This document shows positions 5,158 to 23,247 of a DNA stretch of 64,000 nucleotides, piece by piece. The stretch is from assembly GCF_001669775.1 (NCBI RefSeq), contig NZ_LXWK01000011.1, positions 124,001-188,000 on the forward strand, given 5' to 3'. The translations under genes were made by a program, and so were the position numbers. The stretch's first letter is position 1. Each line of letters starts with the position of its first letter. Origin of the DNA: Rheinheimera sp. SA_1 (GTDB lineage: Bacteria; Pseudomonadota; Gammaproteobacteria; Enterobacterales; Alteromonadaceae). Below the pieces are notes generated by a model. It ran no database searches. It saw nothing but the letters and a program-made list of their open reading frames with translations, and was not told the DNA's origin.

Positions 5158-5787
5158 CTAGAGTTTGAAGCCGGTCGCTACGATATAAGTCTCGCTCGAA
5201 CGTGAACGCGACGAATCGGGCTTGCGGATCCGTACAGTGCTAAATACATTACGAACGTCGAGAACGAATTGATCAAACCCATCGCCGTGAAATACTTTGA
5301 CCACAAAACTGCCATTTTTCTTCAATACTTTGCCACACATTTCCAGCGCTAATTCCACCAGATACATACTACGGCTCTGGTCGACAGTGGCATTCCCACT
5401 CATATTCGGCGCCATATCAGACAACAGCACATCGACATTGCGGCCATCAATGCGCTCAAGCAAAGCATTGAGTACGGCGTCTTCCCGAAAATCACCTTGT
5501 AAAAAGGCAACGCCGGCCAATGGATCCATCGGCAGAATGTCACAGGCAATCACACAACCTTCGGTGCCCACCATTTCTGCCGCAAGCTGCGACCAACTAC
5601 CTGGTGCAGAGCCTAAATCAACCACTGTCATACCTGGTTTGATTAGTTTGTCTTTCGCCTGAATTTCATCAAGCTTAAAAGAAGCGCGTGATCGTAACCC
5701 TAATTTTTGCGCTTTTTGTACAAAAGGGTCGGTTACATGTTCCTGCAGCCATCTGGATGAACTGGCAGAACGTTTTTTCTTGGTCAT
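5158..5787 (-). CDS. rlmE: 23S rRNA 2'-O-ribose U2552 methyltransferase
   Basis: Methylates the 2'-O of U2552 in 23S rRNA during late assembly of the 50S subunit; also known as FtsJ/RrmJ. I use the ATG at 5787, which gives 209 residues starting [17 protein letters not shown], the typical length and N-terminus. An upstream in-frame start at 5868 would add 27 residues overlapping the divergent yhbY promoter region and is unlikely. The SAM-binding motif is [17 protein letters not shown], followed by the catalytic K-D-K region with [10 protein letters not shown] and VVKVFHG. It precedes ftsH by 45 bases; the rlmE-ftsH heat-shock pair is widely conserved. Confidence 0.97.
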
Positions 5788-5870
5788 GGAACTACTCTTA
5801 AATGGTCTTCCATGCAAGATGGCGGTACAATATGGTAATTTCAAGCTTTCCCAATGGAAAAAGTCCACAA

Positions 5871-6167: not shown

Positions 6168-6619
6168 ATCTGTGACATGGCGACTGTTTCCACTTCAGGC
6201 AACAGTGCTGCATCGGTCATATCTGCAGTTAAAAAACCCGCCGCCTGCAATGACAGGCGCGCTGTGGTTTCATCCACAGCAAAATTTCGTACTAACGCGT
6301 CTGGTCTTTCGACCTCGGTTGCCTTCAGATACTGCCATACCAGCAGCGGGTCGGCTGGCTGAATAATTTCAACGTGTAACAACTGCTGCGCGAAACACCA
6401 ACGGCTATGCTGCCGGAGTAACTCAAAAACTTCCATCGGACTGGGTTGCCAACCACGCAAATCTAATACCAGCGCCCAAGGTTGCTGAACGAGACCACTA
6501 ACTAGCGTGGTAAATTCTGCGATATATTCCCGGGTGTTATGAAGTGTTGCTACCCCTTGTGCAGTCACCCAAAGGCTACGATCTTGCAGTTTTAATAAAT
6601 AAGGTTTTTGATAACGCAC
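6164..6619 (-). CDS. Small uncharacterised protein, STAS/SpoIIAA-like in appearance
   Basis: 151 residues, no signal peptide or membrane segment. The pattern is MRYQKPYLLKLQDRSLWVTA, then a strand-helix-strand reading WALVLDLRGW around residue 50, then a helix with MEVFELLRQHSRW. This alternation resembles the anti-sigma-antagonist (STAS/SpoIIAA-like) fold, but I see no decisive motif, so that is only a structural hint. It faces yhbY tail to tail with overlapping stop codons. The codon pattern and clean start support a real gene. Function unknown. Confidence 0.7.
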   Translation of the reverse strand: MRYQKPYLLKLQDRSLWVTAQGVATLHNTREYIAEFTTLVSGLVQQPWALVLDLRGWQPSPMEVFELLRQHSRWCFAQQLLHVEIIQPADPLLVWQYLKATEVERPDALVRNFAVDETTARLSLQAAGFLTADMTDAALLPEVETVAMSQI

Positions 6620-6732
6620 AATACGGCCTCAGCTGATTGCCTTCCATTTGCTGTACATTATCAAATCTGCAGGTAGATTTCACCGTCATAGGCATTATAT
6701 CGCAACCGTTCAACATGACACGTTGACCCGCA

Positions 6733-6770
6733 TGCTGGTCCGCCTAACCAGCACTCCGCCGTGGCGGAGT
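6733..6770. repeat. Two adjacent perfect hairpins after a TonB receptor gene
   Basis: TGCTGGT/ACCAGCA (6733-6739 and 6747-6753) runs directly into ACTCCGCC-GT-GGCGGAGT (6753-6770). They lie between two minus-strand genes, 24 bases past the receptor stop. Neither has a good T-run, so they look more like a REP-type or 3' protective structure than a classic terminator. Confidence 0.55.
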
Positions 6771-6793
6771 CTGGTATCAGCTTCAGCTGTGAA

Positions 6794-8917: not shown

Positions 8918-9159
8918 AAAACCTCCATGGATTACTGATCGTCAAATCAGATAAACTAAAAACTACATGTCAAACACATTTAACTAACCAGAACGTAACC
9001 TCAATCGAGCAGAAGTCGACTTTGGTATCGCGTCTTAGGATACTGAGGACGAAAAGTCAGTTCGGTGACAGTTACACCAGTGGGCAGGTTTTTGCACCAA
9101 CGGGCAGACAACAAACCCGCTGGTGCATCAACCGAACAACAAAGGGAAGCCTGATTAAC

Positions 9160-10089
9160 ATGTTGGTTGCTGATTTTGCTAAAAATGAGATGGACCCAAA
9201 AATCTATTTCTATTCAATTGGTTTTATTTTGGCGTTGTTATTTGCCTTACTCGACAGTAATCCACAGGCACTTGCCTTGCCACAGTTACTAGGGATCTGG
9301 TTATTCCAGGGACTGGCGCCAGTGTCGTTATTAATGTTTTGTCAGCAATGGCTGCAAAAAATAGCGTTACTCCAGCAAGGTTCGCCTTGGGTGAAACTAT
9401 TGTGCTGTGGCATTTTTGCCAGTGTGTTATTTGCCGGTCCGGCGTTGCTGGTGGATGTCTGGATGGGTTTGAACCCACATTATTATCGATGGGAAAGCTG
9501 GCTAGAGGCTTGGTTAACTGAAATCGTCGCTATTGCACCTATGGTGACCATCGGCTGGCTTGCGGCCAATGCCCCCTGGTTACTAGGCTGGCGGATGATC
9601 CGGGCAGTACCAGCGTCCGTGATGACGGGCAATGCCCCCGTCACAACCACCCCATTCTCATCTACCGCATTCACCCCGCCCCCTTTTATTACCACATTGG
9701 GCGATCATGCCACAGAGCCCCCACAAAATTTTGGTCGACAAATAGCGCTGCCGGATGACGATGCTTTTGCCGGTTTTCAGCGTCAGTTACCAGTGGACCG
9801 TCGTGGACACATCCTTTACCTGAAAGCAGAACTACATTATTTATTAGTGGTCACCACTCAGGGACGTGCTTTGATCCTCAGTAGCCTGAAAGATGCGGTG
9901 GCTTCGCTCCCTGCCAACAGCGGTTTTCAGCCGCACCGCTCGTATTGGGTCAATCTGGCTGTGGTGAAAAAACTGACCCGCCAGGGTCGGCAGGGCCAAT
10001 TAATTTTGTATGATGGCAGTAAAATCCCCGTCAGCCGCCAGCAACTGGCGAACGTGACAGAGCTGTTACAGCAGCGTGCGAACGAATGA
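9160..10089 (+). CDS. Membrane-anchored LytTR-family transcriptional regulator
   Basis: About 309 residues from the ATG at 9160, which has GGGAAG eleven bases upstream; an open frame continues back to 9022 but without a good start. The N-terminal half has about four hydrophobic segments (for example IYFYSIGFILALLFALL and LLGIWLFQGLAPVSLLMF). A Pro/Thr-rich linker follows, and the last 100 residues are a LytTR DNA-binding domain: HILYLKAELHYLLVVT, FQPHRSYWVNLAVV and IPVSRQQLANV. LytTR domains bind direct repeats upstream of target genes. There is no receiver domain, so sensing would be through the membrane part. The divergent TonB receptor is the likely target. Confidence 0.88.
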   Translation: MLVADFAKNEMDPKIYFYSIGFILALLFALLDSNPQALALPQLLGIWLFQGLAPVSLLMFCQQWLQKIALLQQGSPWVKLLCCGIFASVLFAGPALLVDVWMGLNPHYYRWESWLEAWLTEIVAIAPMVTIGWLAANAPWLLGWRMIRAVPASVMTGNAPVTTTPFSSTAFTPPPFITTLGDHATEPPQNFGRQIALPDDDAFAGFQRQLPVDRRGHILYLKAELHYLLVVTTQGRALILSSLKDAVASLPANSGFQPHRSYWVNLAVVKKLTRQGRQGQLILYDGSKIPVSRQQLANVTELLQQRANE

Positions 10090-10111
10090 CCGCGTGCTCA
10101 CACCACACTGG

Positions 10112-10392
10112 CTAGTTTAAAGACAGCGGCAACACCAGCGTAAACAACTGCTGTTGACGCCAAAAATATTGTCCCTGCAACATTGTAAATATCGAACCGC
10201 CAGTCGACCAGCCAATTACTCGGCCTGCCTCGCCGCTACTGATCGCTGCATCTGGTGTGGCAAAGTGATATCACATTGGCGAAACAAATTGGGCCGAGAG
10301 CGCATCGCCTGATATCGGCTAATCAACAAAGTTGCCGATTAAGCCTGCCAAAGAAGTTCCGAGTACCAGATCTTATCTATTTCCTGCGCCAT
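10112..10392 (-). pseudogene. Decayed remains of a small gene
   Basis: On the minus strand a strong ribosome site AAGGAGGGG precedes ATG at 10392, which opens MAQEIDKIWYSELLWQA and then meets a stop. A second open piece of about 50 codons follows in the same general region and ends at the TAG at 10112-10114; it contains GEAGRVIGWSTGGSIF and QQLFTLVLPLSLN, which read like real protein. The pieces are not in one frame. I interpret this as a broken gene. The parent family was not recognised. Confidence 0.4.
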
Positions 10393-10922
10393 ATCCCCTC
10401 CTTGAAAACAGTAGCCAACAGCGTCTAGCCCAAACCAGCGGCAGTTGGCAACTTTTAATTTTAATGAATCAAGCTCTTTTCAGCTGTGGCAATCGGAAAA
10501 TGTAGACAAATGCGGGCTGAGCAGGCCCGCCAAATGCTGCAGCGCTGGCCAATGAACAGACTTCGAGCCGGTTACGGCAGCCAATTAATGTCATTCTGGC
10601 GACCGGACGATCCAATTAACTGTCCTTCACCACTATTTAATCGAAATTTCATCCCACAGATGACCGCCCATTCATGCGCCAGTGGGCAATAACAGCCTCG
10701 TTCTAACCCCGCACAGTCATCGCTTTAATATATATGAGACGGAAAATTGATTTTTATTTGACATTCAACTTCCGCTTGTCTGGCGACCAATTTGGCTTTG
10801 TTATCCTCGCTGCCGCATTTGGCCATCGTTTCATCACAAGGTTGCCAAACGTTGGTCCGTTAACCCGGCCAGACACAGTCCAGCAACGGCCAGAGGCCAT
10901 TAAGCACAAAAGGAGAGCAAAG
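10393..10922. other. Gene-poor leader before the PKS operon
   Basis: About 530 bases with no convincing gene. It holds a perfect GCGGGC/GCCCGC hairpin at 10512-10530 without a T-run, and an AT-rich stretch (TTTAATATATATGAG) near 10725. The PKS reading frame stays open back to 10734, but that 63-codon extension does not look like PKS. The promoter must lie here or further upstream; no good -35/-10 pair stood out. Confidence 0.5.
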
Positions 10923-13900
10923 GTGAAAGCACGGACTACAGAGATCGCGGTGATTGGCATGGGGTGCCGTTTTCCTGGCGGCGCAGACAACCCGCAGGCA
11001 TTTTGGCAAATGCTGCAAAACGAGGTGGACGGAATTGTCGACGTGCCACCTGAACGTTGGGATATTCGCAAATATTATGACGCCGACCCGCAAAAGTCTG
11101 GCAAAACCTACGCTCGCCAGGGGGGCTTTATTTCACAGCGGCTGGACCATTTTGACCCGCAGCCATTTCAGATGTCACCCAAAGAAGCCGAAGTGATAGA
11201 TCCGATGCAACGCTTGTTACTCGAAGTCGCCTGGGAAACACTGGAAGATGCGGGTCTGACCCAACTACAAGCCCGGCAAAAAACCACCGGGGTTTTTATT
11301 GGTGCTTTTGCCATCGACAATAAAGCGATTCAGCTGGATGGCGACAACCTCTATGAAACCGATTCACATACCGCGTTTGGCGTCACGATGGCGCTGCTGT
11401 CCAACCGCATCTCTTACGCTTTTGATTTAACCGGCCCCAGCTTTACCGTTGATACGGCCTGCTCGGCGTCAATGACGGCATTGCATCTGGCGGTACAAAG
11501 TTTGCGCAGCGGTGACTGCAATATGGCACTGGTTGGCGGTGCCAATGCCATGATGACACCGCATTATCCGGTGGTGATGAGCAAAGGCCAGTTTTTATCC
11601 CATCATAGCCGTTGCAAAGCTTTTGATGCGGACGCCGCCGGTTACGTCCGTGCCGAAGGCGCTGGTATGGTACTACTTAAACCATTGGCCGATGCCCTGA
11701 AAGACGGCGACAACATTCATGCCGTCATTGTTGAAACCGGTATTAATCAGGACGGACAAACCAAAGGGATATCACTGCCAAACCCGGATGCGCAATATCA
11801 GTTGCTGCAACAGGTTTATGGCCGCGCCGGCGTAGCCCCCAGCGATTTATCATATATTGAAGCGCATGGCACAGGCACCCGCGCCGGTGATCCGCTGGAA
11901 ATCAATGCGTTGGGCCGGGCACTCGCCGGACGACCACTCAACCAGCCTTGCCTGGTGGGTTCGGTGAAGACCAATATTGGCCATACTGAAGCGGCATCAG
12001 CGATGGCTGGATTAATTAAAGCCTGCTTGATCGCCCGGGAAAAACAAGTGCCAGCCAATCTGCACTTTCACACCCCCAATCCGGAAATCCCTTTTGATCG
12101 GCTACCACTCAAAGTGGTCACCGAACTAACGCCGCTTGAGCGCGAAAAAACCCACTATATCGGGGTGAATTCTTTTGGTTATGGTGGCAGTAACGGCCAT
12201 GTCATTGTCCGAAGCGCCAGCGCAGCTGAACGGAAGCATCCTACCGGTGGTGCCGTACAGCAGGATCGCTTGATGCTGGTGCCCTTCAGTGCCCGCTCTG
12301 GTCGGGCCTTGCAAGCGGTATTGCAACGTTTTACTGCACTACTGCAACAATCGGACAACATCAAACTCACTGATTTGGTGTACAGCCTGAGCGAACGCCG
12401 GTCAGCCTTAAGTCATCGGTTTTGTATTCTGGCGGAAAATACCACTGACTTACTGCAACAACTACAAGTGTTGCAACAGCAGAACACCGAACTCAACCTC
12501 AATCAGAGCCAGCCACAACTGACGCGGGTGGCGATGGTGTGTACCGGGATGGGCCCGCAGTGGTGGGGTATGGGTCAACAACTCTATCAGGCTGAACCGG
12601 TATTCCGGCATGCGCTGGAACGGGTCGACCAGGTATTTCGTGAAATCTCCGGCTGGTCGATTTTAAGCGAAATGCAAAAAGACCAACATAGTTCGCGCAT
12701 GGCAGAAACACAGGTGGCACAACCGGCCAATTTCGCTTTGCAAGTGGCGTTATTTGAATTATGGGCGCACTACGGCGTCAAGCCAACCGTGTTGATTGGC
12801 CACAGTGTGGGTGAAGTCGCTGCCGCTTATTTGTCCGGGGCTTTGCCCCTGGACGATGCCTGTAAAGTCAGTTTTCACCGCAGCCGCCTGCAACAACAAT
12901 GCTCCGAACTACAAGGGTCGATGCTGGCCGTTGGACTCGACGAAGTCAGCTGTCAGGCGTTATTAGCAGATTTTCCTGCGGTCGAAATTGCCGCGATTAA
13001 CAGTCCGACAGCGCTCACTGTCGCAGGCCCGCGCGACCAGTTGCAAGCCCTGCAACTGCAGCTGGAACAACAACAGGTGTTTTGCCGGGCGCTGCAGGTA
13101 GAAATTGCCTATCACAGCAGCCAGATGGACGGGATCCGGACTGAATTGCTGCAGGTGCTGGCAGATATACGCCCAAGGCCCGGCAACATCCCGCTGGTGT
13201 CGACCGTCACAGGTGCACTGATTTCAGGCAAAGAACTGGGCGCCGGTTACTGGTGGCAGAATGTCCGGCAACCGGTGTTGTTTGCAGCAGGCCTGCAATC
13301 AGTGCTGCAGCTGACCCCAGACGCAATTTTAGAGCTCGGCCCGCACCCGGTGTTAAAAAACAATATCCGCGAGCTGATGCAACAGCAATCGCTTGAACTG
13401 GTGCAACTAGCCAGTTTGCAACGAAAAGCTGATGAACAGCGGTTTTTCCAACAGGAACTGGCCAACTTTTACTGTCAGGGCGGCGCTATTAACTGGCAGG
13501 CATTTTATGGTCCGCTGGCGCATTATGTCGCACTGCCGCTGTACCCGTGGCAACGGGAACACTTATGGCGGGAATCGGGCCGTTCGGTCGAACGGCGGAT
13601 TGGCCGCTCGGGTGCAGTGTACCTGAATGAACAACTGCCCGGCGCTGGTACAGGCTGGGGCGGCGAAATCAACCGTTATTTTATGCCATACCTGACCGAA
13701 CACCAGGTCAACGCCACCGTGGTATTTCCGGGTGCTGGCATCATCGACGCGATATTTTGCGCAGCGGCGGAATTGGGCGGTGGTGCCAGTTTGACACTGG
13801 AGCAATTCCAGATTGAAAAAATGCTGCAAGTCCCGGCGCAGGCGGTGCTGAAAACCGAACTGCGTTACCACAGTACCGAGCGAAAACTTGAATTGTACAG

Positions 13901-16900
13901 CCGTGATCAGGCAGACAAGTTCAGTCAGTGGCAGCTCAACGCCAGTGCCACATTTTGCCAGTTCCCGGTGCCGGTACCTGAACTTAGCGGCGAAGATTTG
14001 TTAACGCTGACAGAAAACCCGGCACAGGTGCAGGCGTTTTATCAACATGCAGCAAGTATCGGGCTGAATTACGGCCCGGCCTTTCAGACGTTGACCGCGC
14101 TGAAAACCACCCCGGATGGCGTGATCGCGAGATTGAAATCAGGTACAGCTGCGCAGCAGGAGGCCGGGCAATATCTGCTGCACCCAACCTTGCTGGATGG
14201 TGCTTTTCAGTCATTGCTGGCGGCCATCAGCGACGGACCGGCGTATGTTCCCAACAGTTGTAGCCGGTTAACCCTGCTGCAGTTACCTGGTGAGCTGTGT
14301 TACAGCCGCTGCCGGATCCTGGAAAAAAACGGTCGCAGCCTGTGGTGCCAGCTGGAACTTTACAATGAAGTCGGCGAGCTGTGTTTGTTGCTGGAACAAC
14401 TGGAATGCCGGGCGATCGAACTAAGTGGCTCACGTCAGCAAGTGCAAAACCCAATGAATTATCAGTTGCAATGGTTCGCGCAATCAGGCAGCCCCGCTGA
14501 ACACCCTTTACCCCGCCAGGTCCTGTTGATTGACGATGGCAGTGAGCTGGCCTTTGGTTGCGCTGCCGCTTTGCAACAACGTGGTGTGACGGTACGCACG
14601 TACAGTGCTGCCGCCTTATTGCAGCTCATCACGACCCTCCCTGATGGAGAATTATTGTCGCAGTCCAGCACCCGGTTGCCTGTGCAGTTACGGGAACAGC
14701 CCGAAGTCCTACTGGATTTCAGCGGTGTGGCATTGGCACAAAGCCCTGAATTACTTGGCGAAATGTTGGTTGAACAACTCACAGTCCAGGCACAAATCAG
14801 CCGGCAATTGCTGGCCGCGCTGGACGATGGACAACGGCGCTGGCGTTATCTGCGTTTTACTGTTGCAGCTTGTCACGTATTGCCAACCGATCGGAATACC
14901 GCACTGGCGCAGGCCACTTTGGCCGGGTTAAGCGCCGCCATCATCAATGAATACCCGATGGTGTTTTGTCAGAACCTGGATTTGAGCGGCGATACCCGCA
15001 GCCAACTGCAACAAGTGCTGCAGGAGCTGCAAATTCGCGATCAGGCCAGCGACACTGCCTGGCGCGATGCGCAGCGTTATCTGCGACAACTCACCGCGCA
15101 ACCAGCCGACGTTGACCTGTGGCAACAAACCGAGGGCAGTACCGCACAAGCCGTCGAACTGCGGGCGCTAACCGCTGATTTGGTGGCCTGGAGTCAGGTA
15201 ACCGCCCCCGAGTCTGGCGATCAGCATGTCAGTCTGAGCGTGCAGACTGCTGCGTTGGCTCCAGCCTATTGGCAAGGCGAAGCCGCCCCATTGCTGGCTG
15301 TGGCTAAGGTGCACCAGTTGCCGGTGATCGCTGAAGCCAACCCGCTGTTGTTGCAACAAGGCGATTTGGTGTTGTGCAGCATGGAGCCACAACGTTTATC
15401 CAGCCAGGTGCTGGCCAATGCCAGCCAGTTATTGCCACTGCCGGCTGGTTTCCCCACCGGTCAGATTGGCCAGTTGCCGCATTATGCCGCAGCCTTTTAT
15501 TGTCTGACTCATCTGCTGCAGCCTGCCAGTCACAGCAGGATCCTGTTGGCCGATCTGCCACCACCGCTGCAACAGGCGCTGGTTCACCTGGCCTCGCACT
15601 TGCAACTTCAGGTGACCGTATTAAGCGATCAACCAGCCAACGAACCAACGGACCATCAAAACCCTGATATCCAACATTTTGGCTGCCACGACCTGAGTTT
15701 CTTCCGGCCATTACAACAGCAGCCGCCTTTTGCGCTGGTGATTTCAGCTGCGGGTACGGAGATCCGCTCCAAGTTGCTGCGTTTTGTCACCGAACAAGGC
15801 AGTTTGATTGATTTGAGTCAGCAGCCGGTGCAGGCAAATGAGCCAATGGGTGAAAAAAATCTGTGGCAACCGGCGCTAGACGCCCTGACCAGCTTGCCTG
15901 CCCATGCTGGTTTGCTAAATACAGCGCTGCAATTTATCCGCGACCATCACGACGCAATGCCACAAGCCAGTTGTTGCCCGGCAGCACTGCTGGCACAAAC
16001 TGACCACAGCAACAACGAATTCAGCGCGGTGCAGCTGCAACAGCAACAACTGCTGTTGTTAGCACCGGTGACCACCCCCTGGTTAGCTCCCGGCAGTTCG
16101 GTGTTAATCACCGGGGGGACCGCTGGTTTTGGTCTGGCACTCGCCCGGCAACTGGCGAGCTGGGGGGCTTCACGGCTGGTGCTGGCCAGCCGCAGTGGTC
16201 AAATCGACGCTGCCAGCCTGCGCCAGTTACAACACCAAGGTGTGCAGGTAGACATTGTTGCCCTGGACGTCACCGACGCTGCGGCTGTGCACCGGGCGGT
16301 TGCGCTTGCCAATCAGCCACAACAGCCGCTGCGGGTGGTCGTGCACTGCGCTGGCGTATTGGCCGATGGCTATCTGCGAGATTTAACCGCAACTGACTTC
16401 AGAAAGGTGCTGGCGCCAAAAGTACTGGGCAGTCTGCACCTGCATCAGGCGCTTGCGACTCTGCCGCAAGGCCAGTTGCAACGATTTATCTGTTGCTCGT
16501 CGGTGTCGGCTTTGGTCGGAAATCCGGGGCAGGCCAACTATGTCATCGCAAATAATTTCCTCGATGAGCTCTGCCACTGGCGGCGTCGTCAGGGCTTACC
16601 GGCGCTTTCGGTGAACTGGGGGGCGCTGGCCGGCGCAGGAATGGTCGCCCGCGACGAGCAGGTGCGTACCATTTTGGCCGAACAGGGCGTTCATGCCATT
16701 GCTGATCTCTATGCCTTTGAACAGCTGCAACAGGCGCTGAATCGCGACGAAACCCAGCTTGGAATTATGGACATCGAATGGCCACTTTGGTTTAACGCCA
16801 ATCAGTCGGCCCGCAGCTCGGGTCGTTTTAGTCAGATTGTGCAGCAATTTGGCCAGCAGCACAGTGCTGGCCGGGCTTTCCGACAACAGCTGATGAGCCT

Positions 16901-17165
16901 GGAACTGCCAGAACGTAAACAAGCGCTGCAGCAGGCCCTGCAACAACAAGTGGCCGCGCTGCTGCGCTACCAGGCGCCCCAGGTAGATGTAAAAGTCAGC
17001 CTGACCCAACTAGGGGTGGATTCGCTGACCACCAACCAGTTGAGTAAACAGCTACTGACGCAATTAGGACTGGGGATTTCCAGTATGGCATTACTGGCCG
17101 GTCCATCGATTGAACAACTGGCACAGGTGCAGCTGGCAGAACTGGCGGCTGAACCCGGCTGCTAA
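10923..17165 (+). CDS. Type I polyketide synthase, KS-AT-DH-(degenerate ER)-KR-ACP
   Basis: Single-module synthase of 2080 residues from the GTG at 10923, with AAAAGGAG eight bases upstream; the open frame reaches back to 10734 without homology. Ketosynthase: Cys180 in VDTACSAS, His315 in EAHGTGT, His354 in NIGHTEA. Acyltransferase: Ser628 in GHSVGE, with AYHSSQMD around His731. Dehydratase: His927 in HQVNATVVFP and Asp1092 in LLDGAFQ. Residues about 1410-1570 follow the layout of an enoylreductase, but the NADPH glycine motif is replaced by a proline-rich stretch, so this part is probably inactive. Ketoreductase: TGGTAGFG near 1730 and Tyr1873 in GQANYVIANN. Acyl carrier: Ser2034 in LGVDSL. 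There is no thioesterase or methyltransferase domain. The architecture suggests an iterative, partially reducing enzyme making an unsaturated acyl chain. It is the first gene of a six-gene operon; the phosphopantetheinyl transferase must be elsewhere. Confidence 0.95.
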   Translation: MKARTTEIAVIGMGCRFPGGADNPQAFWQMLQNEVDGIVDVPPERWDIRKYYDADPQKSGKTYARQGGFISQRLDHFDPQPFQMSPKEAEVIDPMQRLLLEVAWETLEDAGLTQLQARQKTTGVFIGAFAIDNKAIQLDGDNLYETDSHTAFGVTMALLSNRISYAFDLTGPSFTVDTACSASMTALHLAVQSLRSGDCNMALVGGANAMMTPHYPVVMSKGQFLSHHSRCKAFDADAAGYVRAEGAGMVLLKPLADALKDGDNIHAVIVETGINQDGQTKGISLPNPDAQYQLLQQVYGRAGVAPSDLSYIEAHGTGTRAGDPLEINALGRALAGRPLNQPCLVGSVKTNIGHTEAASAMAGLIKACLIAREKQVPANLHFHTPNPEIPFDRLPLKVVTELTPLEREKTHYIGVNSFGYGGSNGHVIVRSASAAERKHPTGGAVQQDRLMLVPFSARSGRALQAVLQRFTALLQQSDNIKLTDLVYSLSERRSALSHRFCILAENTTDLLQQLQVLQQQNTELNLNQSQPQLTRVAMVCTGMGPQWWGMGQQLYQAEPVFRHALERVDQVFREISGWSILSEMQKDQHSSRMAETQVAQPANFALQVALFELWAHYGVKPTVLIGHSVGEVAAAYLSGALPLDDACKVSFHRSRLQQQCSELQGSMLAVGLDEVSCQALLADFPAVEIAAINSPTALTVAGPRDQLQALQLQLEQQQVFCRALQVEIAYHSSQMDGIRTELLQVLADIRPRPGNIPLVSTVTGALISGKELGAGYWWQNVRQPVLFAAGLQSVLQLTPDAILELGPHPVLKNNIRELMQQQSLELVQLASLQRKADEQRFFQQELANFYCQGGAINWQAFYGPLAHYVALPLYPWQREHLWRESGRSVERRIGRSGAVYLNEQLPGAGTGWGGEINRYFMPYLTEHQVNATVVFPGAGIIDAIFCAAAELGGGASLTLEQFQIEKMLQVPAQAVLKTELRYHSTERKLELYSRDQADKFSQWQLNASATFCQFPVPVPELSGEDLLTLTENPAQVQAFYQHAASIGLNYGPAFQTLTALKTTPDGVIARLKSGTAAQQEAGQYLLHPTLLDGAFQSLLAAISDGPAYVPNSCSRLTLLQLPGELCYSRCRILEKNGRSLWCQLELYNEVGELCLLLEQLECRAIELSGSRQQVQNPMNYQLQWFAQSGSPAEHPLPRQVLLIDDGSELAFGCAAALQQRGVTVRTYSAAALLQLITTLPDGELLSQSSTRLPVQLREQPEVLLDFSGVALAQSPELLGEMLVEQLTVQAQISRQLLAALDDGQRRWRYLRFTVAACHVLPTDRNTALAQATLAGLSAAIINEYPMVFCQNLDLSGDTRSQLQQVLQELQIRDQASDTAWRDAQRYLRQLTAQPADVDLWQQTEGSTAQAVELRALTADLVAWSQVTAPESGDQHVSLSVQTAALAPAYWQGEAAPLLAVAKVHQLPVIAEANPLLLQQGDLVLCSMEPQRLSSQVLANASQLLPLPAGFPTGQIGQLPHYAAAFYCLTHLLQPASHSRILLADLPPPLQQALVHLASHLQLQVTVLSDQPANEPTDHQNPDIQHFGCHDLSFFRPLQQQPPFALVISAAGTEIRSKLLRFVTEQGSLIDLSQQPVQANEPMGEKNLWQPALDALTSLPAHAGLLNTALQFIRDHHDAMPQASCCPAALLAQTDHSNNEFSAVQLQQQQLLLLAPVTTPWLAPGSSVLITGGTAGFGLALARQLASWGASRLVLASRSGQIDAASLRQLQHQGVQVDIVALDVTDAAAVHRAVALANQPQQPLRVVVHCAGVLADGYLRDLTATDFRKVLAPKVLGSLHLHQALATLPQGQLQRFICCSSVSALVGNPGQANYVIANNFLDELCHWRRRQGLPALSVNWGALAGAGMVARDEQVRTILAEQGVHAIADLYAFEQLQQALNRDETQLGIMDIEWPLWFNANQSARSSGRFSQIVQQFGQQHSAGRAFRQQLMSLELPERKQALQQALQQQVAALLRYQAPQVDVKVSLTQLGVDSLTTNQLSKQLLTQLGLGISSMALLAGPSIEQLAQVQLAELAAEPGC

Positions 17166-17196
17166 GCAGGAAACAACGTTTTCGCCCGTTAAGGAG

Positions 17197-17222
17197 GGCC
17201 GCCCGCACACTCTGCGGCGGCC
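17197..17222. repeat. Imperfect GC-rich hairpin between PKS and thioesterase genes
   Basis: GGCCGCCCGCA and TGCGGCGGCC form a strong stem with one bulged base and a 5-base loop. It sits in the 90-base gap between the PKS stop and the thioesterase ribosome site. There is no T-run, so it is more likely to modulate or stabilise the operon mRNA than to end it. Confidence 0.5.
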
Positions 17223-17255
17223 TGTTTGGCGCAAAAATTCACAAGGAGTTCGAGA

Positions 17256-18041
17256 ATGTCCAGATTACTTTCGCAATTTAGTGTAATTAAAGCTCTTCGT
17301 TATACCGATCCAATGGCGCCAGCCGTGGTGGCGTTTCATTACGCCGGCGGCAATAGTCGGATTTTCCAGCCCTGGCTCACGGCGTTACCAGCCAACCTCA
17401 ATTTACTGACCGTGCAATTGCCTGGTCGTGATGAACGTCGCCATGAACCTTTGCCGCAAGACCTGCGTAAGCTGGCCATCGAATGTGCCGAAGCACTCCG
17501 GCATTATCCGGGTGACCTGCTGCTGTTTGGTCACAGTATGGGGGCGTTATTGGCATTTGAAACCGCGTTACAGTTACAGGCACTGCACAAACCCGTGCAT
17601 CATTTGCTGTTGTCGGCCAGACCGGCTCCCCAATTGCCGGTCCGGGCAAGGCGTTCGCATTTGACCAACGATATGTTAATTGATGAATTGCGCAGGTTAG
17701 GCGGCACCCCGCAGGAATTGCTGCAGGATCCTCACTTGCTGGCAATGGTGCTGCCGATCCTTCGCGCCGACTACGCCATGTTGGAACGTTATCAATACCG
17801 GCCATGTACCAAAGCCCGTCAGCTACAGGCGACCTTGTTAGCGGGCCGGCAAGACCGGCTGGTCAGTCCGTTTGAAATTACTGCCTGGCGTCAGGTCCTC
17901 GATAGCCAGACCCCCTTGCGACAGTTTGACGGCGACCATTTTTATTTGCATCAGCAAGTCAGTGCCTTGAGTCAGCTCTGTACTGAACTGCTGTTGCCGG
18001 TCAGCCAGCAGGCTGCGGCCGTACTGGAGGAAATGGCATGA
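17256..18041 (+). CDS. Type II thioesterase (alpha/beta hydrolase)
   Basis: Stand-alone thioesterase of 261 residues, of the kind that releases or edits acyl chains on PKS and NRPS carrier proteins. The ATG at 17256 has AAGGAG seven bases upstream. The start AFHYAGGNSRIFQPW is typical of TEII proteins, the nucleophile is the Ser of FGHSMGALLAFE, the acid is likely the Asp of GRQDRLVSP, and the catalytic His is in DGDHFYLH. The synthase upstream lacks its own thioesterase domain, so this enzyme may carry out release itself rather than only editing. Its stop overlaps the start of the GH3 gene by four bases. Confidence 0.92.
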   Translation: MSRLLSQFSVIKALRYTDPMAPAVVAFHYAGGNSRIFQPWLTALPANLNLLTVQLPGRDERRHEPLPQDLRKLAIECAEALRHYPGDLLLFGHSMGALLAFETALQLQALHKPVHHLLLSARPAPQLPVRARRSHLTNDMLIDELRRLGGTPQELLQDPHLLAMVLPILRADYAMLERYQYRPCTKARQLQATLLAGRQDRLVSPFEITAWRQVLDSQTPLRQFDGDHFYLHQQVSALSQLCTELLLPVSQQAAAVLEEMA

Positions 18042-19900
18042 CCCAACATCTGCTTGCAATACCAGCGCAAAAACCTGGCTTGCTGGCGCGGCTGATGCAT
18101 AACGCTGACATCAAACTGATGGCATTGTTGATCCGCGCCAGCATTGCACTGAGTTACTGGCGCGCCATGCGCCGGGCCGACTCCGCCGTCGACCGGGGTA
18201 CATTAAGGCAACAACGAGATTTCAAACTGAAATTTGCCTTAAGTGGCGATCGCGCCATGCGGGGTTTTAAATTCCGCTGTCGTTACAGCCGCTATTATCA
18301 ACTGCAACTGCTAAGCCGGATCTTGCAACAACAAGCCGAAACAGAGTTTGGCCGTCGCCACCGTTTTGCCAGCACCGGCAGTCTGGCCGACTACCGTGTC
18401 CAGGTGCCATTGCAGGATTATGAAACACTACGACCTTATATCCAGCGCCACCTGCACGGTGAAGCCGATGTGTTACTGGCCGGTAAACCCTGTTATTACG
18501 CCACCACGAGCGGGTCTACCGGTCAGCCGAAGTTTATTCCGGTGACGGTGGCACAAAAACAATCGGCTCATCAGGATGCGGCCAGATTGTGGGGTTATAG
18601 TCTGCAGCAAAATCATCCGGGTGCTTTTTCCGGTAAATCGCTGGTCATTGTGTCACCGGCGGTAGAGGGACACGCGCCGGACGGTACCCCTTACGGCTCC
18701 ATTTCGGGACAATATATCCAGGATCTGGACGAGGCTATCCGGCATAAATATCTGCTGCCGTACGACGTGTATTGCATCAGCGACTATGACGCCCGTTATT
18801 ACACCATCCTACGGTTGGGTCTGGCCGATGCCGACGTGAGCCTGGTGTCGTCGACCAATCCGTCCACCTTAAGTTTACTGGCGGAAAAAGGTGCCAAATG
18901 GCAAGAATGGTTGCTGCAGGATCTGGAACAAGGCGGCATTCATCCGCAGTTTGCGATTGAGCCGGAGATCCGTGCCCGCTTGTTGCCGCTGTGCAAAGCC
19001 GATCCGGTCCGGGCTGCCCAGCTACGTATGCTGGCGCAACAAGATCCGCAGCAACTGCTCAGACCTTACCATTATTGGCCCAAACTGGTGGTCATCGCCT
19101 GCTGGACCGGCGGCAATTCGGCTTTTTTTCTGCAAAAAATGCAACAATGGTATGGTCAGGTGCACATCAAAGATCTGGGCTTTCTTGCCTCAGAAATCCG
19201 CGGCTCAGTACCGCTGGCGCTGGATCAGAGTGCTGGCGTGCTGACTATCGATGATAACTTTTTTGAGTTTGCCCCCGTCAGCACGGTGCAACAAGGTGAA
19301 CCTGAGTTTCTACTGGCCGATCAACTGGAAATTGACCAGCATTATTATTTGTATTTCACCAACACCGCTGGCCTATATCGCTATGATTTAAATGATATTG
19401 TGGCCGTTCGTGGCTTTTTAGGCACCACACCGCTGATTGATTTTATTCAAAAAGGCAAAGGTGTCACCAATATCACCGGCGAAAAAATCTATGAGCAGCA
19501 GGTGCTGGCAGCCGTAGCCAGCGCCGAGCAGCAGACTGAGCTAAAACTGGTGTTTTTCCAGTGTCTGGCGTCCGTTAAAGCCGGTGGTTATCAGTTGTTT
19601 GCTGAGTTTTGCCAATCTCCGGGCCAGCCGGACCTGTCGGCTTTTGCCGCGGCGTTTGAACAGGCGCTGCAACAGCAAAATATCGAGTATCGCAGTAAAC
19701 GATTATCCCAACGGCTGGTCCCGGTGCAGGTTCACGCGCTGGCGCCAGGCGCCTTAGAGTTGTTTAAACGTCGCCGGGTTGCTGCTGGCGTACGCGAAGC
19801 CCAGTTTAAAACCGTACCACTGACTGCTGATGAAAGCCTCAGCGCCGCCTTTGACATTATCGGCAGCAGCGCTGCCCAAGGAAATCAACATGTTGCCTAA
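18038..19900 (+). CDS. GH3-family acyl-adenylating amide synthetase
   Basis: 620 residues of the GH3 superfamily, best known from plant enzymes (for example JAR1) that adenylate carboxylic acids and join them to amino acids. The ATP/AMP motif reads YYATTSGSTGQPKF near residues 152-166. The second motif region is LGFLASEIRGSVPL, and the third is GLYRYDLNDIVAV followed by GEKIYEQQV, matching the family's nucleotide-binding strands. The N-terminal 60 residues are basic and partly hydrophobic. It is translationally coupled (ATGA) to the thioesterase and its 3' end overlaps the ribosome site of the next gene. The expected substrate is the acid released from the PKS, with an unknown amine or amino acid. 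The family call is solid; the reaction is inference. Confidence 0.88.
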   Translation: MTQHLLAIPAQKPGLLARLMHNADIKLMALLIRASIALSYWRAMRRADSAVDRGTLRQQRDFKLKFALSGDRAMRGFKFRCRYSRYYQLQLLSRILQQQAETEFGRRHRFASTGSLADYRVQVPLQDYETLRPYIQRHLHGEADVLLAGKPCYYATTSGSTGQPKFIPVTVAQKQSAHQDAARLWGYSLQQNHPGAFSGKSLVIVSPAVEGHAPDGTPYGSISGQYIQDLDEAIRHKYLLPYDVYCISDYDARYYTILRLGLADADVSLVSSTNPSTLSLLAEKGAKWQEWLLQDLEQGGIHPQFAIEPEIRARLLPLCKADPVRAAQLRMLAQQDPQQLLRPYHYWPKLVVIACWTGGNSAFFLQKMQQWYGQVHIKDLGFLASEIRGSVPLALDQSAGVLTIDDNFFEFAPVSTVQQGEPEFLLADQLEIDQHYYLYFTNTAGLYRYDLNDIVAVRGFLGTTPLIDFIQKGKGVTNITGEKIYEQQVLAAVASAEQQTELKLVFFQCLASVKAGGYQLFAEFCQSPGQPDLSAFAAAFEQALQQQNIEYRSKRLSQRLVPVQVHALAPGALELFKRRRVAAGVREAQFKTVPLTADESLSAAFDIIGSSAAQGNQHVA

Positions 19901-21056
19901 AATTTGTCTTCGAATGTTCCAACCTTTTATCTTCGTGACTGTGCTATTCAGTCTGTGGTTGATGCCGTTGTTCAGCCACGCCACCAGCAGCGCCTTTTTT
20001 CAGCTGAATCACAGCGGCAAACAGGGGGTATTGAACTATACCGATCCGCTGCTTAGCCAGTCCGGTAAAACCGTGCGTTATCAGCTGAAATACACCTATT
20101 GGCTACCAGGGCGCAGCAATGGGAAAGCCATCATCTACAATCATGGCCTGCAAAGTCATCGCGGTTGGTTTTATGGCAGTGCTGAGTATCTGAGGATCTT
20201 AGGATACACCGTGTATGCCTTTGATCGGGTCGGCGCGGGTCAGTCATCGGCCGGGGTGTCCCTGGTGCAATTGCCAGTGCCGGCAGATGTGGCTGAGCCA
20301 ACAACAACCAGGCCGGTGTTGATCCGCCAGCCCGGTCATGTCGATCGTTGGCCGGTCTGGACCGACAGTCTGGATCAGATGGTGCAATTGGTGCGTCAGC
20401 GTCATCCGCGGCTGGAGCTGAATCTGTGGGCCAATAGTTTTGCTGCACATATCCTCACCGGTTATATCAACAGTTATCCGGATCGGGGCATTCGTCGTCT
20501 GGTGTTCACCACTCCGGGTCTGTTTTCTAAATTACCGCTGCCTTTTACCATTGCCGATTTGATCAATGCGCCGGCCGGGCAGTATTTTCCTTCAACGATC
20601 CCTGAGCACAACGGTGATAAGGGCGCAGGCCTGTTTACCGCCGATCCGTTTTATCACTGGGCCATCAGCACTGATGGCTATTCGCAGCGTCGTTTTAGCC
20701 GCGAGTTTTACCTCGCCGTTGGCGGTTTGACGCAATTTAACCTGCTGCGGACCACCATTAGTACCGATCCACTGGCGCAGTTGCCACGGTTTTATCTGTA
20801 TGTCAGCGCCGATCCCATGATGGATACCGGACGTTTACGCAGTTATTTACAGATAGCACCGCAAAACACCGTTGCCAAGGCCTATCAGGGCGGGCTGGAA
20901 CAACGCCATTTACTGGCGTTTACCGCAGATATGCAACAAAGCATTCTGGATATTGATGATTTCCTGCATGACCGGCCAGTACAGGCTGCCGACAATTTGC
21001 AGCAAGCCATGCCAAAAGTGCAGCCGCTGATGGTATTGCCGGAGCATTGGTTATGA
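19890..21056 (+). CDS. Exported alpha/beta hydrolase, lysophospholipase-like
   Basis: 388 residues from the ATG at 19890 (AAGGA eight bases upstream). The N-terminus is a long signal peptide or anchor (FIFVTVLFSLWLMPLFSHA). The fold is recognisable from IIYNHGLQSHRGWFY, the oxyanion region, and from VYAFDRVGAGQSS. The likely nucleophile is the Ser of LWANSFAAH; the usual GxSxG glycines are replaced by Ala, which is unusual. The likely acid is in SADPMMDTG and the His in QRHLLAF. An export signal inside a biosynthetic operon suggests it acts on the finished product, or on lipids, outside the cytoplasm. It overlaps the 3' end of the GH3 gene and is ATGA-coupled to the next gene. Confidence 0.85.
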   Translation: MLPKICLRMFQPFIFVTVLFSLWLMPLFSHATSSAFFQLNHSGKQGVLNYTDPLLSQSGKTVRYQLKYTYWLPGRSNGKAIIYNHGLQSHRGWFYGSAEYLRILGYTVYAFDRVGAGQSSAGVSLVQLPVPADVAEPTTTRPVLIRQPGHVDRWPVWTDSLDQMVQLVRQRHPRLELNLWANSFAAHILTGYINSYPDRGIRRLVFTTPGLFSKLPLPFTIADLINAPAGQYFPSTIPEHNGDKGAGLFTADPFYHWAISTDGYSQRRFSREFYLAVGGLTQFNLLRTTISTDPLAQLPRFYLYVSADPMMDTGRLRSYLQIAPQNTVAKAYQGGLEQRHLLAFTADMQQSILDIDDFLHDRPVQAADNLQQAMPKVQPLMVLPEHWL

Positions 21057-22375
21057 CAGCGCTCGGCCGTTTTCATCAGCCATTAGTGATCAGTCACATA
21101 CAGTTGCATCAGATTCACATCCCCTTTGTGCTGAGTTTTAACCATGCCACCCATCAACGCGCTGGAGTGACCGGCATTGTACTGCAACTGACCTCTGCCT
21201 GCGGCAAACAAGGGTATGGCGAAGTGCTGCCGCGCGATTATGTCAGTGGCGAAACGCATCAGTCGGTGGTCGCCGCCCTGAGCACTGTGGTATTACCGGC
21301 CTTAGTAGGCCGGCATTTCACCGATGTTATCGGGGTGCTGGATTATCTGCAGGATTTTTATCTGCTACACCCGACGTTGAAGCCGGACGAAAGTTGTGTG
21401 CGCACTGCAGTAGATTTAGCCTTGTTGGATTTGGCCGGACATTGCCTGAACCAGCCACTGGCGCCTTTACTGGCAGCAGCGGCTGGATTACCCGACGGGC
21501 TGGATGGTGCAGTGCTTTATTCCGGCACCTACGGCATCAGCCAGCAAAAAACACTGGATGTTAGTGAAAAATCCGAACTTGGCCGTTATCAACGCGCTTA
21601 TCAAGCGCTGCAATTGCAGCAATTTAAGCTCAAAGTTGGCTGTGATCTGGATAGCGAACTGGCGTTGTTACGTCATTTGCAGCACCAACATCCACACACC
21701 CGCTGGCGGGTTGATGCCAATGGTGCCTGGACGTTACAGCAGGCCAGGCAGGCGATCCCGGCCTTGTTGGCGTTGGGAGTTGAAAGCATTGAACAACCGC
21801 TTGCAGCTGCTGATCGGCACGGGTATCTGGCGCTCTTTGCGGAGCTGGCAACAGGTTGCTGGCTGGACCGCACCACAGGTCAACCGGTCATCATCATGCT
21901 GGATGAGTCCTGTTGCCGCTTTAGTGATATCAGCTATTTACTCGAAGCAGGATACCAGCCGGCACTGAACCTACGGGTGTCTAAATGTGGCGGCATTTGG
22001 TCAACCTTACAACTGGCACTACAAGCGAGGCAGCACGGCTTAAGGTATCAACTGGGGGCCCAAGTCGGAGAAACGGCGATCCTGACGCGCGCCGGTCAGG
22101 TGGTTGCCGCATTATTAGCTGATTGTGTCTACCACGAAGGTGCATTTGGCGATTATCTGCTCTGTCAGGATCTACAGCAGCCCTCGGTAAAACTGGGCGA
22201 TGGCGGTTGGTTAAGTAACCAACCGCTGCTGACAGAACCTGGATTAGCCGTGGTTGTTTCGCCCGTCCTGCTCGACCAATACACCAGCCACTGCAGTTTC
22301 TGGGATGTAGCCGGCCGTCACGAAGATCAGGAACAAGGCAAAAAATTCAGTAGCGACGAGGTGAGTTGTGTTTGA
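21053..22375 (+). CDS. Enolase-superfamily enzyme, muconate-lactonising/racemase subgroup
   Basis: 440 residues from the ATG at 21053, overlapping the previous stop by four bases. The capping domain is followed by a barrel with the complete superfamily set: Lys192 and Lys194 (KLK), metal ligands Asp221 (VDANGAW), Glu247 (IEQPL) and Asp284 (MLDES), and Lys311 (VSKCGG). A Lys-x-Lys facing a second Lys is the arrangement of dipeptide epimerases, N-acylamino-acid racemases and o-succinylbenzoate synthases, which abstract an alpha-proton. No menaquinone genes are nearby. Next to a GH3 amide synthetase, epimerisation of an N-acyl amino acid is the attractive reading, but the substrate is unknown. 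Confidence 0.88.
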   Translation: MTALGRFHQPLVISHIQLHQIHIPFVLSFNHATHQRAGVTGIVLQLTSACGKQGYGEVLPRDYVSGETHQSVVAALSTVVLPALVGRHFTDVIGVLDYLQDFYLLHPTLKPDESCVRTAVDLALLDLAGHCLNQPLAPLLAAAAGLPDGLDGAVLYSGTYGISQQKTLDVSEKSELGRYQRAYQALQLQQFKLKVGCDLDSELALLRHLQHQHPHTRWRVDANGAWTLQQARQAIPALLALGVESIEQPLAAADRHGYLALFAELATGCWLDRTTGQPVIIMLDESCCRFSDISYLLEAGYQPALNLRVSKCGGIWSTLQLALQARQHGLRYQLGAQVGETAILTRAGQVVAALLADCVYHEGAFGDYLLCQDLQQPSVKLGDGGWLSNQPLLTEPGLAVVVSPVLLDQYTSHCSFWDVAGRHEDQEQGKKFSSDEVSCV

Positions 22376-23000
22376 GTTGTTGCACAAGGTCAAAGGCAAG
22401 GTCGCGCCGCTGCCAGTAGAAGTTCACCAATCAGCGGCAAAAAAGCAACATAACAGCCGTTATCAACGGCTGCTGCGCGCCACCCAGTTTGGGCCGCTGA
22501 CTTTTTTTGTGCTGTACGCCAGTTGGCAAGGTCAGGACGATTTTGCCCGTTGGTTACGCGCATTTGAATACAGCGCCCTGCTGGTGTTGGTGCAGTTTTG
22601 GTTATGCCGACATCAAAGGCCAGTCAACAAACTAATGGTGTCAGCAAACCTGTATCTGCTGTTTGGCGCGGCAGCCAGTCTGCTGGACGGCTATCAGCTG
22701 CAACTGCTGCTGGATCAGTGGCGGGCGCAGGCACTATTTGTGCTGATAGCCACGATCAATCTGTGCTGTACCCTGAGCCACAGCGCCGGGTGTTTATCCA
22801 GTTATCCAATCCGGCGATGGCAAGGTAGATGGGCGTCACTTAGCTTAACAATGGCGAGCCTGCTGGCTATTTTACCCTCCACCCTGAGTGGTGCCTCGTT
22901 GTTGTATGTGGCATTTGTGCCGTTACTGGTGTTGTCATTACTGGAGAAATGGCTCAGTTATCGAGTCAGCCGCCCCAGTTTGGTTTCTCGCCGGCACTAA
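22368..23000 (+). CDS. Uncharacterised multi-pass membrane protein
   Basis: 210 residues from a GTG at 22368 that overlaps the enolase-superfamily gene by eight bases, with GAGG just upstream. About five or six hydrophobic segments are visible after a basic N-terminus: FGPLTFFVLYASW, YSALLVLVQFWL, LYLLFGAAASLL, ALFVLIATINLC, LTMASLLAILP and LLYVAFVPLLVLSLLE. I do not recognise a family. Its place at the end of the operon suggests a role in export of, or self-protection from, the product, but nothing in the sequence proves that. Confidence 0.75.
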   Translation: MFELLHKVKGKVAPLPVEVHQSAAKKQHNSRYQRLLRATQFGPLTFFVLYASWQGQDDFARWLRAFEYSALLVLVQFWLCRHQRPVNKLMVSANLYLLFGAAASLLDGYQLQLLLDQWRAQALFVLIATINLCCTLSHSAGCLSSYPIRRWQGRWASLSLTMASLLAILPSTLSGASLLYVAFVPLLVLSLLEKWLSYRVSRPSLVSRRH

Positions 23001-23218
23001 ACACAAAAACGCCGGGAGCGTTTTTGGACAGCTTCAGCTGGTCCCGCAGGGATTTTCTACATGGATGTAGAAAACACAAAAACGCCGGGAGCGTTTTACA
23101 CTCGCCACATCCATGTAGCTCGCCTTCGGCAACTACGTTGTGCAAAACGGCTATCCTGCCGTTTTGTGGACAGCTTCAGCTGGTCCCGCAGGGATTTTCT
23201 ACATGGATGTAGAAAACA
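23001..23218 (+). repeat. Direct-repeat cluster carrying terminator hairpins
   Basis: A 52-base unit (23025-23076), starting TGGACAGCTTCAGCTGGTCC and ending in CTACATGGATGTAGAAAACA, is repeated without mismatch at 23167-23218. The hairpin AAAACGC-CGGGA-GCGTTTT occurs at 23005-23025 and 23079-23097, and a related hairpin AAAACGGC/GCCGTTTT lies at 23144-23165. Each 52-mer holds the small palindrome CTACATGGATGTAG, echoed by CATCCATGTAG near 23107. The block fills the gap between the convergent PKS operon and greA. Confidence 0.85.
23005..23025 (+). terminator. Rho-independent terminator of the PKS operon
   Basis: Perfect 8-bp stem AAAAACGC / GCGTTTTT with loop CGGGA, five bases past the last stop codon of the operon. 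It can work on both strands. A second copy of the same hairpin is at 23079-23097. Confidence 0.8.
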
Positions 23219-23247
23219 AAAAAGCGACTGATAAAGTCGCTTTTTTT
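23218..23247 (-). terminator. Rho-independent terminator of greA
   Basis: Perfect 12-bp stem AAAAAAGCGACT / AGTCGCTTTTTT with loop GATAA, 15 bases beyond the greA stop. On the minus strand it ends in a run of Ts; it is bidirectional in form. Confidence 0.9.

Follow-up and report, generated by a model that had tools for sequence, protein, structure and literature searches.

A report of 2025 showed that a bacterial member of the GH3 family, OlsH of Singulisphaera acidiphila, produces ornithine lipids by N-acylating ornithine with free fatty acids; its partner OlsI is an alpha/beta hydrolase, and the functions of other bacterial GH3 proteins are left open in that report (PMC12493201). OlsH/OlsI ornithine-lipid synthesis is the closest described system to a six-gene operon of Rheinheimera sp. 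SA_1 (contig NZ_LXWK01000011.1, positions 124,001 to 188,000; this stretch of 64,000 nucleotides is referred to as the window), which encodes a polyketide synthase (PKS), a thioesterase, a GH3 enzyme, an alpha/beta hydrolase, an enolase-superfamily enzyme (the enolase hereafter), and a small hydrophobic protein. The likeness lies in a GH3 amide synthetase and an alpha/beta hydrolase sharing one operon, and in the free fatty acid donor, whereas the operon described there has no PKS, the words enolase, racemase, and epimerase are absent from the main text of the report (PMC12493201), and the window GH3 scored 103.5 bits on the OlsH model NF052613, the cut-off of which is 620 bits.

The plant GH3 enzymes, such as JAR1 and GH3.12, belong to the same family and share recognizable nucleotide motifs with the window protein, which differs from them in being of a bacterial subfamily. 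A GH3 annotation inside a polyketide cluster is found for RubP3 of the rubiginone cluster of Streptomyces; however, this is an aromatic angucycline pathway, and the passage on RubP3 mentions no enolase (PMC8487521). Dipeptide epimerases, N-acylamino acid racemases, and muconate cycloisomerases have the fold, three metal ligands, and strand-2 KxK motif of the window enolase, but the latter carries arginine for the strand-6 lysine and its own RxYVxGE and GxxVGE motifs. An earlier note on this DNA, made from the letters alone, knew of no described pathway with this combination. In agreement with this, neither a described pathway with a PKS, a GH3 enzyme, and an enolase nor a described function for the GH3-enolase pair was found in searches of one open-access library, MIBiG being outside the scope. 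The note had named as refuting a match of the whole set to a characterized cluster or a gene order unique to one strain with broken members elsewhere. Neither was seen: no such cluster was found in that library, and the set is intact in other genera.

The operon is real and intact, as had been claimed, with six co-directional open reading frames (ORFs) on the + strand and no internal stops at 10923-23000. The PKS (10923-17165; 2080 amino acids, GTG start) is followed by the thioesterase (17226-18041; PF00975 at 176.4 bits, with GHSMG and DGDH motifs), a GH3 acyl-acid amido synthetase of the enolase-associated kind (18038-19900; assigned by PF03321, PF23571, and PF23572, motifs, and tree), a monoglyceride-lipase-like alpha/beta hydrolase (19890-21056; PF12146, Ser/Asp/His, and structure model), an enolase-superfamily enzyme of a KxK/Arg subgroup (21053-22375; PF13378 and PF02746, residues, clade, and model), and a small hydrophobic, possibly membrane, protein with three hydrophobic segments (22368-23000). 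Longer ORF forms exist for the PKS, hydrolase, and enolase, for which later starts were chosen. The four overlapping start/stop junctions reported after the thioesterase were also recovered, at 4 bp (thioesterase/GH3), 11 bp (GH3/hydrolase), 4 bp (hydrolase/enolase), and 8 bp (enolase/last gene).

A gene-neighborhood search for PKS, GH3, and enolase genes, as the note had proposed, found that the set recurs in other genera, but the widely conserved core is GH3 and the enolase, usually with the hydrolase, and the PKS is an addition. When an enolase alignment was profile-searched across genome contigs and the best 80 of at least 376 relatives were kept as loci, 43 of the 80 contained a GH3 gene, at most 300 bp from the enolase in 34 and one gene away in nine, and the hydrolase was the usual third member, being adjacent in 36 of the 43. 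The GH3-bearing loci, many of which stem from metagenome assemblies, are distributed over Pseudomonadota, Bdellovibrionota, Thermodesulfobacteriota, Planctomycetota, Melainabacteria/Cyanobacteriota, Chloroflexota, Omnitrophota, Hydrogenedentota, Sumerlaeota, and Neomarinimicrobiota. A whole-genome search behind 49 of the 80 loci found GH3 in 38; the eleven genomes without it were ten of Desulfobacterota/Myxococcota, in which a PF03279 lipid-A-type acyltransferase stands beside the enolase (by Pfam on L048, L056, L066, and L075, and by clustering in the rest), and that of L033, the enolase of which has lysine. Neither GH3 nor the acyltransferase was nearby in 25 of the 80 loci, which comprised nine Lys-type enolases outside the clade described below, L033, and 15 planctomycetes; nine genomes of the latter were scanned, and GH3 was present elsewhere in all nine.

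GH3 and this enolase are old partners. Among 199 genomes of Planctomycetota, GH3 was found in 22 of 22 with an enolase match of at least 250 bits and in 36 of the 177 others (Fisher 5.6e-14, a value that ignores shared ancestry, while GH3 absence in incomplete assemblies may be false); leaving out the four genomes reached via the enolase scan, the count was 18 of 18. The 250-bit threshold was set after seeing the matches, and just below it GH3 was present in 4 of the next 11 genomes checked. The distance between the two genes in the 22 planctomycetes was at most 0.8 kb in nine and 4 kb in one, and in twelve they were far apart or on another contig. Among 321 genomes of Gammaproteobacteria, 16 had GH3 and two, including that of the window, had an enolase match of at least 250 bits, with GH3 adjoining or one gene away in both. 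Fusions also occur at such loci: in L086 (Chloroflexota, 9065-11164, + strand), the hydrolase and enolase are a single protein, after which come genes for GH3, a cyclic-nucleotide-binding protein, and a ketosynthase, and in L154 (G497:C22, 9829-12396, - strand), which belongs to the second of the two gammaproteobacterial genomes, a fatty-acid-hydroxylase (PF04116) fused to GH3 is followed by an Arg-type enolase. That these genes are mere neighbors, the pairing of which has no functional meaning, is very hard to credit: unrelated genes can share operons and many of the loci are metagenomic, but GH3 and the enolase co-occur even when unlinked, the hydrolase and enolase are fused in one locus, and the association recurs in about ten phyla.

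Several of these neighborhoods have features of their own. An Arg-type enolase adjoins or overlaps the lipid-A-type acyltransferase in L047, L048, L050, L051, L056, L062, L065, L066, L071, and L075, and proteins of a sensor cluster (GAF/HD-GYP by Pfam, L048 only) are encoded close to several of these loci. The same acyltransferase lies 2.8-4.1 kb from the enolase in the spirochaete loci L088 and L092, and in the latter (7929-14897) an AMP-binding ligase, the enolase, a PP-loop ATPase, a sensor-cluster protein, and the acyltransferase stand in a row, the last two being assigned by clustering. In L045 and related Melainabacteria, NAD-dependent epimerase/3beta-HSD-type and Mpo1-like genes come after the triad (by Pfam on L045, by clustering in the others). 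A gene that we take to be Ser/Thr kinase-like stands beside the GH3-enolase-hydrolase genes in L022, L023, L058, L102, and L042 (a kinase by Pfam on L042 only), and what is presumably a PP2C-like gene lies downstream of them in L023. In L052 (8840-11146, + strand), a clade enolase is fused to a redox domain, Haem_oxygenas_2 (PF14518), and GH3 follows.

Regarding the enolase, its MR_MLE domains, the strand-2 KxK motif (K192 and K194), and the metal ligands D221, E247, and D284 place it in the muconate-lactonizing subgroup; the barrel motifs are also kept, and RxYVxGE and GxxVGE are invariant in 12 aligned members. The catalytic position on strand 6 is occupied by Arg308, which aligns with the lysine of the Bacillus subtilis epimerase 1JPM that we count as Lys268 and take to be its second catalytic base. 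The second lysine of the Lys/Lys racemases and epimerases, to which the note had assigned this enzyme, is thus lacking. An enolase tree of 85 rows (104 less five duplicates, a short fragment, and another 13 GH3-linked rows, each with arginine) contained an Arg-type clade of 60 rows with support of 100/100, in which 58 rows have arginine, one lysine, and one glycine. Arginine was present in 32/32 GH3-linked and 12/12 acyltransferase-linked rows of the tree set, and lysine was kept in 16/16 dipeptide-epimerase-like proteins of related genomes. Dipeptide epimerases have a DxD motif on strand 8. This motif was not seen at the strand-8 stretch of the window enolase, which reads YHEGAFGD; DLDGP is present there in 7 of the 16 epimerase-like proteins (L005-L020), and in the rest the alignment covers this stretch partly or not at all. 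Racemization or epimerization by two lysines, from which the note had argued for an epimerized product, is doubtful for this enzyme because the strand-6 lysine is replaced by arginine. One-base chemistry appears to be more natural, although arginine might in principle serve.

An epimerization of the alpha-carbon of the GH3 product to a D-amino acid lipid, in which the arginine would be the second acid/base, is unlikely in our view, yet deserves to be considered before any other alternative. The solved sequences closest to the enolase are the N-succinyl-Arg/Lys racemase 2p88 and dipeptide epimerases, and N-acylamino acid racemases are among the fold neighbors of its structure model (predicted local distance difference test, pLDDT, 86.6). 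However, these racemases and the muconate cycloisomerases rank together in the structure search, which therefore fails to separate the two activities, and both the arginine of the clade and the retention of lysine and, in part, DLDGP by epimerase-like proteins argue against it.

The enolase was below every cut-off of the NCBIfam racemase, epimerase, cycloisomerase, and menC models, including 72.4 bits on the muconate cycloisomerase model TIGR02534 (cut-off 334.95) and, for example, 52.1 and 53.1 bits on the menC (o-succinylbenzoate synthase) models (cut-offs 130.55 and 200.65). The weak menC matches bear on another possibility, in which the enolase precedes GH3 and works on the acid or on its amine partner, as MenC precedes MenE, the hydrolase corresponds to MenH, and GH3 afterwards activates the enolase product. 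The order of hydrolase, enolase-superfamily enzyme, and adenylating enzyme in many loci resembles what we take to be the order MenH-MenC-MenE. Nevertheless, we regard this arrangement as rather improbable, considering the unmet o-succinylbenzoate synthase cut-offs, the hydrophobic N-terminus of the hydrolase in PKS-bearing loci, the lipase-like window hydrolase, and the acyltransferase that is the neighbor of the enolase in GH3-less genomes.

The window GH3 clearly belongs to its family, with scores of 213.9, 64, and 62.8 bits on the models of its N-terminal, central, and C-terminal domains against a cut-off of 23.6 and the nucleotide-binding motifs TSGSTGQPK, LGFLASE, and GLYRYDLND, and the ten solved sequences that it matches are all plant GH3s (JAR1 and relatives). 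Seven other GH3s from enolase-bearing genomes scored 97-115 bits on the OlsH model, and none of 24 genomes examined had a GH3 over its cut-off. In a tree of 56 chosen rows of the 83 found, the 37 GH3 rows of enolase-bearing genomes formed two supported clades (23 and 14 rows), and OlsH-like rows stood apart (100/100); with the model score, this led us to reject the identification of the window GH3 as OlsH. It is for the same reasons improbable, more so than the MenC-like order, that the operon is an OlsH/OlsI-type ornithine-lipid pathway with extra genes, in which GH3 would N-acylate an amino acid and the hydrolase would O-acylate the product. The two enzyme classes do share one operon, as in Singulisphaera, and OlsI is an alpha/beta hydrolase that works as an O-acyltransferase (PMC12493201). 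On the other hand, no methyltransferase (OlsG) was found in the operon by Pfam, and the hydrolase is probably an exported protein. When the neighbors of three OlsH-like genes were searched with the hydrolase profile, an alpha/beta hydrolase next to one of them gave only 14.9 bits, and no match was found next to the other two.

The PKS is a single-module type I enzyme with ketosynthase (KS, 10941-12212, + strand, by Pfam, the end being taken from NCBIfam matches), acyltransferase (AT, 12537-13466), dehydratase (DH, 13644-14420), ketoreductase (KR, 16098-16631), and acyl carrier protein (ACP, 16932-17126) domains, all on the + strand by Pfam. The expected motifs were found in KS, AT, KR, and ACP; the DH has its His and Asp motifs, but HxxxG reads HxxxA. 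A degenerate enoylreductase (ER) stretch was located at about 15240-16020 (+ strand) by alignment with the ER-intact proteins of L027, L030, and L087, in which the GGVG motif is kept. This motif is gone in both Rheinheimera proteins known to us here, those of the window and of a second strain described below, so that the window enzyme departs from the KS-AT-DH-ER-KR-ACP organization of a highly reducing type I PKS in its ER, the other domains being present. The loss supports a chain that stays unsaturated, and the thioesterase likely releases or edits this chain as a free acid.

The PKS, thioesterase, GH3, hydrolase, and enolase genes are also co-located in Pseudoalteromonas sp. MSK9-3 (L186) and Exilibacterium (L187), with full-length PKS homologues (42 and 39% identity, respectively) that have an intact ER reading HNATGGVG or HNASGGVG, and with an additional 4HBT thioesterase. 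Both trees unite the two Rheinheimera with Pseudoalteromonas and Exilibacterium in a single clade (GH3 100/100, enolase 99/100), which suggests that this PKS probably joined the GH3-enolase genes once in that four-member clade. Thermoguttaceae L087/L188 (G193:C6, 4826-19889) hold an independent PKS-GH3 cluster, consisting of an AMP ligase-ACP, a KS-AT-DH-ER-KR-ACP-thioesterase protein that is fully reducing with its own thioesterase, a PanE-type reductase, GH3, an NAD epimerase, and the enolase. A ketosynthase pair occurs in L076; both this locus and the Thermoguttaceae cluster fall elsewhere in the trees than the four-member clade. Beside the Pseudoalteromonas PKS (L186, G147:C34, 9659-13439) are genes for an autoinducer-binding regulator of the LuxR type, for an autoinducer synthase of the LuxI type, which also weakly matches the N-acyl amino acid synthase FeeM, and for a homologue of the window receptor with 46% identity. 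The Pseudoalteromonas operon may be under quorum sensing. In Exilibacterium, an RND pump gene is nearby, a LytTR protein is encoded about 9 kb upstream, and no receptor homologue was found in the stretch fetched.

The hydrolase is of the S33 type, and its Ser, Asp, and His do not vary across an alignment of 13 homologues. Its one hydrophobic N-terminal segment (residues 5-23) is consistent with a signal peptide, and the window hydrolase is probably exported. The first 33 Foldseek rows for its structure model (pLDDT 86.0) were monoglyceride lipases, a resemblance that favors a lipid over a peptide as substrate.

Taken together, we consider the chances to be evenly balanced that the locus encodes a horizontally acquired acyl-amide pathway of the aminolipid type, for which we infer all substrates and every reaction from gene content, co-occurrence, residues, trees, and the genomic island described below. 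The single-module PKS, used iteratively, would build an acyl chain left unsaturated because its ER is degenerate, thereby supplying a custom chain to the GH3-enolase core. The thioesterase would free this chain as a carboxylic acid, which GH3 would adenylate and couple to the amine of an amino acid. The KxK/Arg enolase may then hold the carboxylate of the acyl-amino acid on its metal while the strand-2 lysine takes the alpha-proton; a one-base reaction, either beta-elimination to a dehydro-amino acid or cycloisomerization, appears somewhat more likely than epimerization. The hydrolase, which is lipase-like and in this lineage probably exported, would trim or transfer an acyl group, and a TonB-like receptor may handle the product outside. 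The unsaturated acyl-amide pathway that the earlier note had proposed therefore stands in outline, given the loss of the ER, the thioesterase, and the precedent of N-acylation of ornithine by OlsH (PMC12493201), but its enolase chemistry does not.

A number of findings weigh against this acyl-amide pathway. The window GH3 is far from OlsH, and the acceptor may therefore not be an amino acid; the two GH3 clades meet ten GH3s of genomes without a found enolase in an unresolved fork, and enolase and GH3 are not close in 12 of the 22 planctomycetes. No hydrolase was found in 7 of the 43 GH3-bearing loci, and in many loci of Melainabacteria and planctomycetes the hydrolase lacks a hydrophobic N-terminus, which makes its place in the pathway unsure. 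Moreover, epimerization may still take place with an arginine on strand 6, and the enolase could act before GH3.

More broadly, we tentatively propose, with somewhat less assurance than for the acyl-amide pathway of the window, that GH3 and the KxK/Arg enolase form a widespread, undescribed pathway, spread over about ten phyla, to lipids or signals of the acyl-amino acid type in which the amino acid is altered. The amide would be made by GH3 or, in other lineages, by the lipid-A-type acyltransferase, the enolase would yield a dehydro-, D-, or cyclized form, and PKSs would have joined more than once, once beside LuxI/LuxR genes. The Rheinheimera locus probably gives rise to a fatty acyl-amino acid of a kind not yet described. 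An enolase that recurs as a partner and has a modified active site offers a direct, testable handle on one group of bacterial GH3s and points to an enolase-superfamily subgroup in which arginine replaces the second catalytic lysine; it also suggests that acyl-amide lipids or signals, some with dedicated polyketide chains, occur across many phyla.

The operon lies in an accessory island of ~16.7 kb (6479-23217), which also contains a TonB-receptor-like gene and a LytTR regulator gene; the locus accordingly includes two genes beyond the six that the earlier note had described correctly. In another Rheinheimera genome (G005), a spacer of ~247 bp separates the blocks matching the window up to 6478 and from 23218, and the flanking proteins are ~99% identical to those of the window (95% for one of seven). 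The island flanks, greA and an ORF at 5158-5868, adjoin each other in all four same-genus genomes fetched (G005, G015, G017, and G020; L182-L185). The GC content is 0.549 in the operon and 0.484 and 0.496 in the flanks. The enolase orthologue occurs in two of 22 genomes of the genus, that of the window (G000) and Rheinheimera sp. Bin_57_1 (G010), in which all eight genes are present at 55-80% identity at a different chromosomal site, beside genes that we take to be purH-like and dusB-like, with the receptor and LytTR genes at the opposite end of the operon. Considering these two sites, the eight-gene block appears to move as a unit. A plasmid gene set was considered and rejected: no DNA match was found in plasmids, and the protein matches were distant (22-28% identity for the enolase among ten rows listed of 98 records, and 21-39% for GH3 in 11 records).

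The TonB-dependent-receptor-like outer-membrane protein (6794-8917, - strand) is assigned by weak matches to TonB-receptor models (15.8 bits, and 40.8 bits for the Pseudoalteromonas homologue, also weak), and it had no match in Pfam or PDB searches. Among the 22 genomes searched, the only close copy (81% identity) was that of G010; matches in four further genomes reached 31-32%. The receptor accompanies the operon in two genera, since the 46% identical homologue, which is full length, adjoins the Pseudoalteromonas PKS. The LytTR-domain transcriptional regulator (about 9160-10089, + strand; PF04397 at 68.9 bits) has a chosen start codon, the longest ORF beginning at 9022, and a 55% identical homologue beside the G010 cluster. 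The small hydrophobic protein had no Pfam or NCBIfam match; a homologue is present in G010 and in none of the other named loci.

The terminator reported at the end of the operon has a counterpart in terminator-like hairpins at 23004-23026 and 23218-23246, but the whole region contains 16 such hairpins against a mean of 16.7 in shuffles, and thus no excess; a promoter scan of the region gave 6 candidates against 8.8 in shuffles, which is below chance. The gap that separates the operon from greA, at the edge of the island (22999-23226), contains repeated hairpin-forming copies of 64 nucleotides (95%) and 26 nucleotides (100%).

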